A stretch of 64,000 nt of DNA from Burkholderiales bacterium (GTDB lineage: Bacteria; Pseudomonadota; Gammaproteobacteria; Burkholderiales; Burkholderiaceae_C): the NCBI GenBank assembly GCA_021732385.1, contig JAKFVA010000009.1, positions 1 to 64,000 of the forward strand. The letters are read 5' to 3'. Within the stretch, counting starts at the first letter, position 1. Every line of letters begins with the position of its first letter. This document shows, piece by piece, positions 45,279-50,028 of this stretch. Both the position numbers and the translations under genes were made by a program. Below the pieces are notes generated by a model. It saw only the letters and a program-made list of their open reading frames with translations, searched no databases and was not told the origin of the DNA.

Positions 45279-46244
45279 CTAGTCGAACGAACCAAAACGC
45301 TTGATGTCGCTGAAGTTCATCCAGATGAAAAAGGCCTTGCCCACAATATTGCGCTCTGGCACAAACCCCCAGTAGCGCGAATCCAACGAATTATCGCGGT
45401 TATCACCCATCAAAAAATAGTGCCCTGCGGGGACTTTGCAAACCACCCCTTCCACACTGTAGCGGCAGTTTTGTCGGTAGGGGAAATCTTCCACGCCCGC
45501 AATAAAGGCAGGGCGATCGTCATCGTTGAGCAAGCGGTGCGCTACACCGCCTAATTTTTCTTCATACTGCTTGTAGTAGCGGGTTTCATTGGTGTCAAAG
45601 AACTCGGCCACAGGTTTGACCGGTACGCTCTGCCCATTGACTGTGAGCTTTTTGTTCAGATAGGCTATCTCATCACCTGGCAGGGCGACTACGCGTTTGA
45701 TGTAATCCAGGCTGGGTTTGGGCGGGTAGCGAAACACCATTACATCACCACGCTGGGGGTTACCCACCTCAATGACCTTGACGTTGAGCACCGGCAAACG
45801 CACGCCATAGGCAAACTTGTTCACCAAGATCATGTCGCCAATCAGCAGCGTCGGAATCATCGAACCAGACGGAATCTTGAATGGCTCGAACAAAAATGAG
45901 CGCAGCACAAACACCGCCACAATCACTGGAAATAGCCCAGCCGTCCAGTCCAGCCACCATGGCTGCTGCATGACGCGGTTTTTTGCGGCCTCAATATCGC
46001 CGTCCACTTGCGTAATGCCCTTGGTTGCCAGCTCGGCGCGAAAATGCAAGGCATCGGACTCCAGCGCTTGGGCCGCTTTTTCGCGTTGCGGCAAAAAGTA
46101 CAAACGTTCGGCCAGCCAATACAAACCAGTCACCACAGTGGCACAAAACAGCAGCAGGGCAAAATTGCCTTCAACCTGCCCGAAGTACCAGGCACCGGCA
46201 TAGCCTAAAAAGCCAGCCAATACAAAAGCAGTCAGCCACTGCAT
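45279..46244 (-). CDS. lepB: Signal peptidase I
   Basis: Inner-membrane protease cleaving Sec signal peptides (321 residues). Two helices at the N-terminus. The catalytic serine is in FKIPSGSMIPTL (about S128) and the lysine in DYIKRVVALPGDEI; GHYFLMGDNRDNSLDSRYWGFVP is the box E segment. The start overlaps the lepA stop by one base. With lepA, DUF4845 and rnc it forms a conserved chain. Confidence 0.95.
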   Translation of the reverse strand: MQWLTAFVLAGFLGYAGAWYFGQVEGNFALLLFCATVVTGLYWLAERLYFLPQREKAAQALESDALHFRAELATKGITQVDGDIEAAKNRVMQQPWWLDWTAGLFPVIVAVFVLRSFLFEPFKIPSGSMIPTLLIGDMILVNKFAYGVRLPVLNVKVIEVGNPQRGDVMVFRYPPKPSLDYIKRVVALPGDEIAYLNKKLTVNGQSVPVKPVAEFFDTNETRYYKQYEEKLGGVAHRLLNDDDRPAFIAGVEDFPYRQNCRYSVEGVVCKVPAGHYFLMGDNRDNSLDSRYWGFVPERNIVGKAFFIWMNFSDIKRFGSFD

Positions 46245-48055
46245 CAGTCTTCCACCTGCAGAATGGCCAAAAACGCTTCTTGCGGCACTTCAACCGAGCC
46301 GATTTGCTTCATTCTTTTCTTGCCTGCTTTTTGTTTTTCAAGGAGTTTGCGCTTGCGTGAGATATCACCGCCATAACACTTGGCGAGCACATTTTTGCGT
46401 AAGGCTTTAATTGTCTCACGGGCAATAATGTTGGCCCCAATGGCAGCCTGTATGGCCACGTCATACATTTGACGCGAAATAATCTCGCGCATCTTGGCCA
46501 CCACAGCCCGGCCCCGGTATTGCGACAGGCTGCGGTGCACGATGATGGACAGTGCGTCGACTTTTTCGCCATTCAATAAAATGTCAACCTTGACCACATC
46601 CGAGGCGCGGTATTCCTTGAACTCATAGTCCATTGACGCATAGCCACGGCTAACGGATTTAAGCTTGTCAAAGAAGTCCAGCACAATCTCACCCAAAGGC
46701 AGGTCATAGGTGAGCATGACCTGTTTGCCGTGGTAGGCCATGTTGATTTGGGCGCCGCGCTTCTGGTTAGCCAGCGTCATCACCGGGCCCACATACTCTT
46801 GTGGCATGTACAGGTGCACCGTTACGATGGGTTCACGAATTTCCTCCAATCGCCCCTGGTCGGGCATTTTTGACGGATTCTCGACCATCACCACTTCCCC
46901 GTCCGCCTTAACCACTTGGTAGACCACGCTTGGCGCAGTTGTGATCAAGTCTTGGTCAAACTCGCGCTCTAATCGCTCCTGAACGATCTCCATATGCAGC
47001 AGGCCCAGGAAACCACAGCGAAAGCCAAAGCCCAGCGCTTGGGACACCTCTGGCTCGTAATGCAGCGAGGCGTCGTTTAACTTCAGTTTTTCAAGTGCAT
47101 CACGCAGGGAATCGTACTCACTGGCTTCGGTTGGGTACAAGCCAGCAAACACCTGCGGCTGGATTTCCTTGAAGCCCGGCAATGCTTGGGTAGCGGTAGC
47201 CGCTGCGCCGCCCGTACCATGCTTGATGAGCGTGACGGTATCGCCTACCTTTGCGGCTTGCAGTTCCTTGATGCCGGCAATGATGTAGCCCACCTCACCC
47301 GCTTCCAACGATTCGCGCGGTTGGTTGCCTGGCGTGAATACGCCCAGATTATCGGCGTTATACATGGCGCCAGTGGCCATCATCTTGATACGTTCGCCCT
47401 TGGCCAAACGGCCATCGACCACGCGCACCAACATGACCACACCAACATAGCTATCAAACCAACTGTCGATGATCATGGCGCGCAATGGGCCGCTCGGGTT
47501 ACCTTTGGGCGGCGGAATACGTGCCACTACCGCCTCCAAAATCTCGTCAATGCCCATGCCGGTTTTGGCCGAGCACGGAATGGCATCGGTAGCATCAATG
47601 CCAATCACATCCTCAATTTCGAGCTTGGCATTTTCGGGGTCGGCGTTTGGCAAGTCCATTTTGTTGAGCACGGGCAGCACCTCAACCTTTAAATCCAGCG
47701 CGGTGTAGCAATTGGCTACGGTCTGCGCCTCGACACCTTGCGAAGCATCAACCACCAGCAAAGCACCTTCGCAAGCACTTAACGAGCGGCTCACTTCGTA
47801 GGAAAAATCCACATGCCCCGGCGTATCGATCAGATTCAGGTTGTAGGTTTGGCCGTCTTTAGCCAGATATTGCAATGCGGCGGTCTGCGCCTTGATGGTT
47901 ATGCCACGCTCTTTCTCGAGATCCATTGAGTCCAGCACCTGCGCCGTCATTTCGCGCGCCTGCAATCCGCCACAGCGCTGAATCAGCCGGTCTGCCAATG
48001 TGGATTTACCGTGGTCAATGTGCGCGATGATGGAAAAATTTCTGATGTGATTCAT
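46244..48055 (-). CDS. lepA: Elongation factor 4 (LepA)
   Basis: Ribosome-associated GTPase of 603 residues. The G domain begins [24 protein letters not shown], with DTPGHVDF and NKMDLP. The LepA-specific C-terminal region contains [25 protein letters not shown], which ends the protein family. A TTG one codon upstream is the only alternative start. It lies 49 bases after a minus-strand terminator-like hairpin (48104-48130), so it may have a leader or start just after that structure. Confidence 0.96.
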
Positions 48056-48099
48056 CAATAAAGACGTTCAAACGGTTGAATGAAAACAGTTCTACAAAA

Positions 48100-48240
48100 A
48101 AATAGGGCGCGTCGATGATGGACGCGCCCTGAACCAACAATCTATGGCAACTGCGATAGTTGGAAATTCATTGTAGGCAAAAAGACATGTGTACATAGCC
48201 CCAAAATGCCTAAACTTCAGCAGTTGCAAGCCAACAACAA
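48100..48240 (-). ncRNA. Candidate small RNA or lepA leader
   Basis: On the minus strand a TATAAA (complement of 48243-48248) precedes a foldable segment. Its outer stem is GCAACTGC (complement of 48220-48227) with GCAGTTGC (complement of 48147-48154). An inner stem TAGGCA/TGCCTA lies near 48212-48173. The segment ends in a strong intrinsic terminator at 48130-48104, which has a T tract. This fits a free-standing RNA of roughly 140 bases, or a longer one from the promoter at 48394-48421. A leader that attenuates lepA is the alternative. I recognise no known RNA family. Confidence 0.4.
48104..48130 (-). terminator. Intrinsic terminator upstream of lepA
   Basis: Ten-base-pair perfect stem AGGGCGCGTC/GACGCGCCCT with a 7-base loop (48114-48120). 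On the minus strand it is followed by ATTTTTTTGTAG. It is 49 bases before the lepA start codon and is too far from mucD (which has its own terminator) to serve that gene, so it closes an intervening transcript or acts in a lepA leader. Confidence 0.8.
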
Positions 48241-48256
48241 GATTTATATGCACAGC

Positions 48257-48265
48257 TTATCCACA
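48257..48265 (+). promoter_or_regulatory. Perfect DnaA box
   Basis: TTATCCACA exactly matches the consensus DnaA box. It lies just upstream of the TATAAA of the candidate small RNA on the minus strand and inside the inverted repeat TGCACAG...CTGTGCA. Degenerate boxes (two mismatches each) are near 48291 and 48305. A single perfect 9-mer can occur by chance. Confidence 0.45.
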
Positions 48266-48393
48266 GAATCTGTGCAGTAATCTATGGACAACATGTTGGA
48301 TATCTGTGGATTGGTAGGTAGTAAGCTGAATGGATCTCAAGTCATGACTTTAAATGCCTGTGTAACGTCAATTGACCAAGCACATTGAGCACA

Positions 48394-48421
48394 ATTCTAC
48401 TCAATATTAAATTGAAAACAA
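48394..48421 (-). promoter_or_regulatory. Putative sigma-70 promoter in the mucD-lepA gap
   Basis: Minus strand TTGTTT (48416-48421), 16-base spacer, TAGAAT (48394-48399). It lies after the mucD terminator, so it can start the candidate small RNA and/or lepA transcript. Confidence 0.45.
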
Positions 48422-48482
48422 TTTAAGTTAGTGTGCGCAAACTACTTATTTTTGTTTGGCACCACAAAAAAATTTGTAAAAA

Positions 48483-48511
48483 AGCCCTGTGCCCTTGTTG
48501 GGGCCAGGGCT
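48483..48511 (-). terminator. Intrinsic terminator of mucD
   Basis: Stem AGCCCTG/CAGGGCT (complement of 48505-48511 and 48483-48489) with a 15-base loop, followed on the minus strand by TTTTTTAC and a further T tract. Located 33 bases after the mucD stop. Confidence 0.85.
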
Positions 48512-48543
48512 AATAAAGCAGGACTTGTAGGCGCAAACGCGTA

Positions 48544-50028
48544 TTACTTGCCTGGACGGAGCATGACGTACTGCTCCCACTGACCACGCCGGTACAAGAC
48601 CTTGATCGGTTTTGTTTTATCGAGCTTGCCCACGGCGGCGTCAAATTCCTTGAGGCTACTTACCGCAATGCTGCCAAGCTCGGTAACCACATCGCCCTCG
48701 CGCAATCCAGCGCGAGCAGCAGCGTCGCTAACGGCGTCGACTTTCACACCGCCTTTGATCTTGAGTTCTTTTTTCTGCGCATCGGTGAGCTCACTGACTT
48801 TCAAACCAAGCACCTGCCCGGTACCGGTGGCTTTAGGTTTTTCGTCTTTCTCCGAAGTTTTAACCACGGGCTTTTCAGGCTCGATCTCGGCAATCACTAC
48901 GCTCAAGTCTTTATAGGCCCCCTTGCGAAACACGGTGATAGTACTTTTGTTGCCTGGCGCCGTATTGCCCACTTGGCGCGGCAAGTCAGCTGACTTGTCA
49001 ATTAGCTTGCCATCGACCTTGGTAATAATATCGCCTGCCTGCACACCCGCCTTGTCAGCGGGTGAGCCAGATTCGACACCACGTACCAGTGCGCCCTGAG
49101 CCTTAGCCAAGCCAGCCGCCTCGGCAACTTCCTTAGTGACTTGCTCGATTTGCACGCCAATACGGCCACGCACCACGCGCCCGGACACGCGCAACTGGTC
49201 ACTGACGCGAATAGCTTCATCCATGGGAATTGCAAAGGAGATTCCCTGAAAGCCACCCGAGCGGGAGTAAATCTGGCTGTTGATGCCCACCACTTCACCA
49301 CGCATGTTGATTAGTGGTCCGCCTGAATTGCCCGGGTTGATGGCCACATCAGTCTGAATGAACGGCAGGTAATCGCCGGTGTCACGTTGTTTAGCGCTGA
49401 CGATACCAGCAGTAACGGAGTTTTCCAAGCCGAACGGCGAACCAATCGCCATGACCCACTCGCCTACTTTAAGGCGGCTCACGTCGCCAACCTTGATGGC
49501 GGACAAACCAGTGGCTTCAATTTTGACCAATGCAACGTCAGTACGCCGGTCAGCACCAATAATTTTGGCCTTGAACTCGCGCCTGTCAGTGAGCGTAACC
49601 AACACTTCATCGGCTCCGTCGACCACATGTGCATTGGTCATGATCAGACCGTCGTTGCTCAAAATAAAACCTGAACCAACGCCGCGTGGCGCATCTCGAG
49701 GCGCCTCTTCTTCAGGCTGAGGCCGATTTGGGCGCGGCGCTTGGCGCGGCGCGCCAGGCAATGGCTGCCCAAAAAAACGCCGGAAAAATTCCTGCATCTC
49801 TTCGTCGGCCCCGCCCAAGCCAGGAATATTGGAGCCTACTTTGACTTTTTCCAAGGTACGAATGTTGACCACTGAAGGCCCCACTTGCTCAACCAAATCA
49901 GTAAAGTCGGGCAGAGTGCGGCCTTGTGCAACGGCGGGCTTGAGCGGCATAAGCGTTAACGTAACTGCCACAGCCAGCAAGCCTACTAAGGCGAAAGCGC
50001 GCCATTGGCTCATATCGATTTTCTTCAT
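48544..50028 (-). CDS. mucD: Periplasmic serine protease MucD/DegQ
   Basis: DegP-type (HtrA) protease of 494 residues with a signal peptide ending in AVAQG. The trypsin-like domain carries His in TNAHVVDGA, Asp in TDVALVKI and Ser in GNSGGPL. Two PDZ domains follow. The proline/glutamine-rich linker before the catalytic core resembles the Q-linker. ATG at 50028 has AGAGG at a good distance; the ATG at 50031 is equally possible. It ends the sigma-E operon rpoE-rseA-rseB-mucD. Confidence 0.92.
   Translation of the reverse strand: MKKIDMSQWRAFALVGLLAVAVTLTLMPLKPAVAQGRTLPDFTDLVEQVGPSVVNIRTLEKVKVGSNIPGLGGADEEMQEFFRRFFGQPLPGAPRQAPRPNRPQPEEEAPRDAPRGVGSGFILSNDGLIMTNAHVVDGADEVLVTLTDRREFKAKIIGADRRTDVALVKIEATGLSAIKVGDVSRLKVGEWVMAIGSPFGLENSVTAGIVSAKQRDTGDYLPFIQTDVAINPGNSGGPLINMRGEVVGINSQIYSRSGGFQGISFAIPMDEAIRVSDQLRVSGRVVRGRIGVQIEQVTKEVAEAAGLAKAQGALVRGVESGSPADKAGVQAGDIITKVDGKLIDKSADLPRQVGNTAPGNKSTITVFRKGAYKDLSVVIAEIEPEKPVVKTSEKDEKPKATGTGQVLGLKVSELTDAQKKELKIKGGVKVDAVSDAAARAGLREGDVVTELGSIAVSSLKEFDAAVGKLDKTKPIKVLYRRGQWEQYVMLRPGK

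Follow-up and report, generated by a model that had tools for sequence, protein, structure and literature searches.

A candidate small RNA in the lepA leader of a Burkholderiales family, with a loop complementary to the start of a histone H1-like gene

The gap between mucD and lepA

The window, a stretch of 64,000 nucleotides (nt) from a Burkholderiales bacterium, carries mucD and lepA on its minus strand, separated by a gap that holds the features collected in Table 1. Downstream of lepA lie genes that we take to be lepB, rnc, era, recO, pdxJ and acpS. A sequence-only reading of this gap had proposed a small RNA of 140 to 290 bases with its own promoter, a long fold and a terminator, or else attenuation of lepA. 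Comparative sequence upholds the idea of a small RNA at this site, but not the 5' end, length, promoter or fold first assigned to it: its conserved form measures about 68-70 nt instead. The DnaA boxes and the complementarity to a histone gene described below were absent from that reading and are new here.

Table 1. Features of the mucD-lepA gap in the window
Feature	Position	Strand	Basis or remark
Separate terminator 3' of mucD	48478..48510	-	sequence
P1, TTGTTT-16-TAGAAT	48394..48421	-	sequence
Tandem DnaA boxes TGTGGATAA-GC-TGTGCATAT, 9+2+9	48246..48265	-	79 and 90 nt upstream of P2 -10
Dyad TGTTG-N7-GCAAC between DnaA boxes and P2	48223..48239	-	conservation profile, 123 leaders
P2 -10 box TACAAT of predicted small RNA	48170..48175	-	invariant in 36-row alignment
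Predicted small RNA, about 68-70 nt, ends inferred	48096..48165	-	model match 48096-48175, fold z, pair counts
Hairpin 1, CCAAC-u-AUC / GAU-u-GUUGG round loop	48134..48163	-	fold and pair counts
Loop GCAGUUGCCAU, predicted seed, antisense to AUGGCAACUGC	48144..48154	-	conservation and target matches
Intrinsic terminator AGGGCGCGUC...GACGCGCCCU and T tract	48096..48130	-	both arms kept with compensatory changes
lepA	46244..48058	-	ORF; tblastn for lepA in relatives

The motifs of the promoter proposed at first sit where they were placed (TTGTTT at 48421-48416, 16 nt, TAGAAT at 48399-48394), and the position of TAGAAT is kept in many relatives, but TTGTTT is not kept in those inspected by eye. 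Scanning positions 47500-49200 for consensus motifs revealed no sigma-70-type promoter. The terminator at 48130-48104 is located as claimed, with 10 pairs of which 8 are G-C, and it stands as a motif, but terminators in the same interval do not exceed chance by consensus scan (2 sites versus 2.2 expected). As the scan detects neither promoter nor terminator beyond chance, support for both comes from their conservation in relatives.

The remaining motifs are present but take on other meanings. The TATAAA at 48248-48243 is the end of a DnaA box (48265-48246). Both arms of the long fold, GCAACTGC (48227-48220) and GCAGTTGC (48154-48147), can be found in the window, but relatives do not keep the fold: of the 30 loci checked, GCAACTGC is present in one, namely the window's own, and this fold was dropped. 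Its inner stem, TAGGCA (48212-48207) with TGCCTA (48179-48174), also exists, but the 3' arm overlaps the conserved -10 box TACAAT (48175-48170). All 200 shuffles fold less well than the 294-nt and the 147-nt segment (z = -3.53 and -3.66, respectively).

Conservation and structure of the leader RNA

The window's GTDB family appears to comprise Comamonadaceae together with the Rubrivivax/Roseateles group. Searched at the DNA level, 87 of 150 genomes of this family contain the segment, with identity densest in the last 90 nt, and a pattern scan yielded at least 118 matching stretches; Acidovorax, Variovorax, Polaromonas, Rhodoferax, Limnohabitans, Rubrivivax, Roseateles and Ideonella are among the matches listed. 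From 146 of the 150 genomes, 147 lepA leaders were taken (one genome contributes two), and mucD lies upstream on the same strand in 138 of them. A core that begins with the -10 box TACAAT, includes hairpin 1 and ends with the terminator was detected by profile in 136 of the 147 leaders, in three of them weakly. The loop is kept letter for letter over much of this range: GCAGTTGCC (RNA: GCAGUUGCC) occurs in 123 leaders, the longer GCAGTTGCCA (RNA: GCAGUUGCCA) in 119, and the full GCAGTTGCCAT (RNA: GCAGUUGCCAU) in 73. TACAAT is invariant in a 36-row alignment (A2) and nearly so in 95 rows. The predicted RNA would start at about 48165-48161.

Leaders fall into two types, here labeled C (CCAAC-u-AUC / GAU-u-GUUGG, the window's type) and S (CCAACAA / UUGUUGG, with a shorter spacer). 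The window's 69-nt RNA has a fold z of -5.49. Pairing conserved across relatives' mucD-lepA gaps, which the sequence-only reading had proposed to look for, does exist, in the form of two covarying hairpins rather than the fold it described. In a 95-sequence alignment, itself fitted to the model, 97.9% of cells are paired and 10 of 18 pairs have changed on both sides, a value reached in 0 of 500 shuffles; 42 of the 64 both-sided cells belong to one pair that differs between types C and S, a clade-wide change. This alignment leaves out L039, L045, L051, L070 and L104 and includes L167, which scores below the match threshold. RNAalifold returned the same two helices from it, with 14 pairs. Within one type alone (36 rows), covariation did not exceed that of shuffles (151 of 500 as high).

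With a model that combines both types, 23 of 24 family genomes gave a single match, and 16 genomes from outside the family gave none. In an order-wide search with model R1, 28 of 300 genomes gave matches; of the 19 lying outside the family, only one (L167, in G244) is located between mucD and lepA, and it lacks the loop. The element thus described is intergenic, with a predicted promoter of its own (the conserved TACAAT) and an intrinsic terminator, and its loop offers a conserved, unpaired predicted seed that can pair with the start region of an mRNA. On this comparative footing, the element is family-wide, and the small RNA predicted from it is probably real.

No Rfam family reached its gathering score in the search, membership in a known one was rejected, and nine sub-threshold matches look like chance; the RF02278 covariance model stayed below its gathering score and does not appear among those weak matches either. 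Identity with ncS35 (BCAM2068/2069) or with S17 (coq7) is ruled out by the different locus. One sequence titled as an Alphaproteobacteria metagenome-assembled genome (L251) carries the element and is probably a misbinned contig. In the genome with two leaders (G067), lepA lies on two contigs, and the loop is present in one of the leaders and absent from the other (L037 and L055), likely through contamination or a mixed bin.

Complementarity to a histone-like gene start

The complement of the loop, AUGGCAACUGC, opens a gene that comes right after nrdB and encodes a protein rich in lysine, alanine and proline, which profiles classify as histone H1-like (NF038053.1 and Pfam HC2, both above cut-off). 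This gene starts with ATGGCAACTGC[AG] in 58 of 60 genomes. Twenty genomes, most of them picked for a missing or odd loop, were added to these 60; among the resulting 80, the target start matches in all 62 genomes that have the loop, as opposed to 9 that match, 8 that do not and one in which no such gene was found among those without it (Fisher exact test, P = 9e-7, not corrected for relatedness). A MucD tree applied to this association is poorly resolved and provides two supported independent pairs. Three of the 8 nonmatching cases (G072, G037 and G057) may rest on a misidentified gene or start, and one loopless genome with a matching start, G091, has a one-base variant of the loop.

The second and third codons of the target are GCA and ACT in all 62 loop-bearing genomes, although both are rare in the rest of the same genes (15.8% of alanine and 12.0% of threonine codons, respectively). 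Outside the family, 3 of 13 lysine- and alanine-rich genes beside nrdB have the same start. Because these 3 genes and 9 of 17 loopless family genomes share it, this start must in part predate the RNA.

Of the 150 family genomes, 136 contain GGAG-N3-10-ATGGCAACTGC, compared with 20 of 146 other genomes of the order. The window's own genome has a single ATGGCAACTGC site preceded by a Shine-Dalgarno sequence, that of the histone gene. When 30 family loci with GGAG-N3-10-ATGGCAACTGC were fetched, 29 encoded lysine- and alanine-rich histone-like proteins and one a transporter. The first target search, with the 11-mer TGGCAACTGCG in 8 genomes, returned 51 sites versus 9 for a reversed control; TGGCAACTGCG is common inside genes, 7 of the 51 sites are the RNA locus itself, and 3 of 30 loci examined lie at a start codon, all of them the histone gene.

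In the window's genome, the duplex of loop and target has a predicted energy of -24.0 kcal/mol, and the best of 53 gene-start windows in the window reaches -20.7, a predicted margin that is modest. Across the 62 genomes, the predicted values range from -17.7 to -27.2 kcal/mol. The loop is predicted to be mostly open (unpaired probability, 0.44-0.94), as is the AUG of the target.

Seven of the 29 histone-like loci (L501, L505, L506, L508, L510, L517 and L518) represent a second gene that begins with ATGGCAACTGC. Its product has a histone-like tail and a TPNAAF-type C-terminus, and both of the two proteins scanned, out of the 7, contain a SWIB domain.

Attenuation, DnaA boxes and the proposed mechanism

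Attenuation of lepA, the alternative raised by the sequence-only reading, is supported by the nearness of the T tract to lepA and by promoters and terminators in other families. The predicted terminator stands downstream of the last promoter and ahead of lepA. In type C (Comamonadaceae), a median of 38 nt separates the end of the T tract from lepA (at most 60 nt in 73 of 79 leaders), leaving no room for a promoter, so lepA must be reached by reading through the terminator; the median distance in type S is 102 nt. Among 28 leaders from outside the family, the best-scoring from 59 genomes of the order with lepA, a purpose-made detector finds a terminator before lepA in 21 (4.0 expected) and a -10-like box together with a terminator in 13 (0.2 expected). 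Loopless leaders within the family retain both in 18 of 24 cases. From these leaders we infer that the promoter and terminator are an ancestral lepA attenuator to which hairpin 1 was added later. In the leaders of other families (L311-L338), the -10 box often stands right before the terminator, whose stem is commonly GGGCAC...GTGCCC; S-type leaders such as L059, L066 and L091 have several further hairpins between terminator and lepA (for example, GGCC-TTCG-GGCC and CAACGGCTTCGCCGTTG).

The reading that we favor, with a probability of about 0.68, is that a trans-acting small RNA cut from the lepA leader blocks a start codon in the manner of chlamydial IhtA, the same RNA probably also serving as a lepA attenuator. 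Transcription would begin at TACAAT (48175-48170), probably the -10 box of lepA as well, proceed through the 5' hairpin and stop at the terminator (48130-48104), while polymerases that read through the terminator would transcribe lepA. The two roles are not exclusive, premature termination in the leader being the event that would release the short RNA. The open loop of hairpin 1, GCAGUUGCCAU, would pair with AUGGCAACUGC, covering the start codon and the next codons of the HC2-like mRNA, and this pairing would block initiation of its translation. In the Rubrivivax/Roseateles type, the loop would also target the histone-tail SWIB gene with the same start.

That the leader acts purely in cis, setting transcription of lepA-lepB-rnc-era, with the histone match a coincidence or a shared preference, is unlikely. 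It would account for the position of the T tract, for the promoters and terminators of other families and of loopless leaders, and for the presence of the element always at lepA in loci where lepA was sought. It leaves unexplained, however, both the letter-for-letter retention of the loop in 119-123 of 147 leaders and its perfect antisense match to one gene start. The 14 to 18 consensus pairs all belong to the two hairpins; inspection by eye revealed no alternative antiterminator pairing, and complements of the loop are rare in the leader or early lepA.

The tandem DnaA boxes are two TTATNCACA-like 9-mers facing the same direction. In 120 leaders, boxes with at most one mismatch number 240, compared with 23.1 expected from shuffles. 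If a displacement of 2 from the fixed place is tolerated, both boxes have at most one mismatch in 76 of 123 leaders, and at least one box does in 114. A search for the tandem pattern in 10 genomes gave 14 genome-wide matches versus 1 for a reversed control, two genomes having none; 8 of the 14, including all five perfect ones, fall in the lepA-leader gap. A looser tandem test detects boxes in 108 of the 123 loop-bearing leaders and in 1 of the 24 loopless ones, that of G091. Since most loopless gaps are short, the absence of boxes there may reflect mere loss of space.

The distance from the boxes to P2 is the same in both leader types, while that of P1 differs: P1-like TA[GCA]AAT sites lie 221-225 nt upstream of the P2 -10 box in Comamonadaceae-type leaders (54 sites in 79 leaders) and 179-181 nt upstream in the other type (27 sites in 54), both counts having no chance control. 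The boxes are thus tied to P2, suggesting that DnaA bound to them at their fixed upstream distance might tune this promoter, up or down. More tentatively, the pieces could form a switch from replication to chromatin, in which cooperative DnaA would gate P2, the RNA would block the HC2-like histone start (and in one branch the SWIB-histone), nucleoid packing would follow the replication state, and the regulator would be a seed hairpin added to the ancestral lepA attenuator.

It is improbable that the boxes are themselves the functional unit, a DARS- or datA-like chromosomal element with the RNA as passenger or modulator. Escherichia coli DARS and datA are intergenic clusters of DnaA boxes away from oriC, and in most of the 10 genomes no other site matches the tandem pattern better than the boxes here, but they are fixed to the small-RNA promoter and not to P1, the loop is under a separate constraint of its own, and the order of the boxes is presumably not that of DARS. 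A leader peptide, read from an ATG overlapping the -10 box, is very improbable: its frame stops after 9 codons in 21 leaders (a pattern that includes the window) but is not conserved, with no stop within the core in 76 leaders and stops elsewhere in others, no Shine-Dalgarno sequence is visible by eye, and the loop sequence is kept through 1-nt insertions.

Bacterial histone-like proteins are widespread, but to our knowledge little is known about the control of their synthesis, and chlamydial IhtA is the sole known case of a small RNA silencing a histone at its start codon. IhtA represses the histone-like hctA, its hairpin loop 1 covering the AUG of the histone H1-like mRNA, and like the lepA-leader RNA it consists of stem-loops ending in an intrinsic terminator (available text of PMC4355289). 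Its target site is CAUGGCG, as opposed to AUGGCAACUGC here, and its target is HctA (Hc1) rather than an HC2-like protein. IhtA has three stem-loops in 107 nt, a 7-nt contact and a host of another phylum, whereas two hairpins are found here, and the available text reports neither a lepA leader nor DnaA boxes (PMC4355289). The likeness is one of mechanism, and no sequence kinship is claimed.

In Burkholderia cenocepacia, ncS18 and ncS33 are dual 5'UTR/small RNAs in which, as proposed here, the leader gives a short RNA and read-through gives the mRNA; they belong to other genes and are released mainly by processing, and the candidate table shows no lepA link (available text of PMC5688073). The double-hairpin RNAs of RF02278 (ncS03, ncS05, ncS27 and ncS62 [PMC5688073]) and Bordetella S17 (PMC11722255) are described in the available texts as betaproteobacterial small RNAs with two hairpins and about 57-70 nt. 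They differ from the lepA-leader RNA in having CU-rich seeds directed against ribosome-binding sites and in occupying other loci, that of S17 being next to coq7, and RF02278 has no match in the window. None of the papers listed in a literature search describes the lepA-leader RNA. If the favored reading is true, a whole family of environmental betaproteobacteria silences a histone at its start codon by a small RNA, a small RNA has arisen from an attenuator, and the replication initiator is tied to nucleoid packing; the histone target and the DnaA link are the surprising parts.

Two further elements lie upstream of P2. The dyad TGTTG-N7-GCAAC is common to both leader types and might act as an operator or form a hairpin in RNA made from P1. 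A block, TCCACAGATC..CCCACAAGTTGTCCAGAG (about 48311-48282 in the window), is conserved in the upstream region of L002-L031, where it faces the tandem DnaA boxes, and it may contain further weak DnaA sites.
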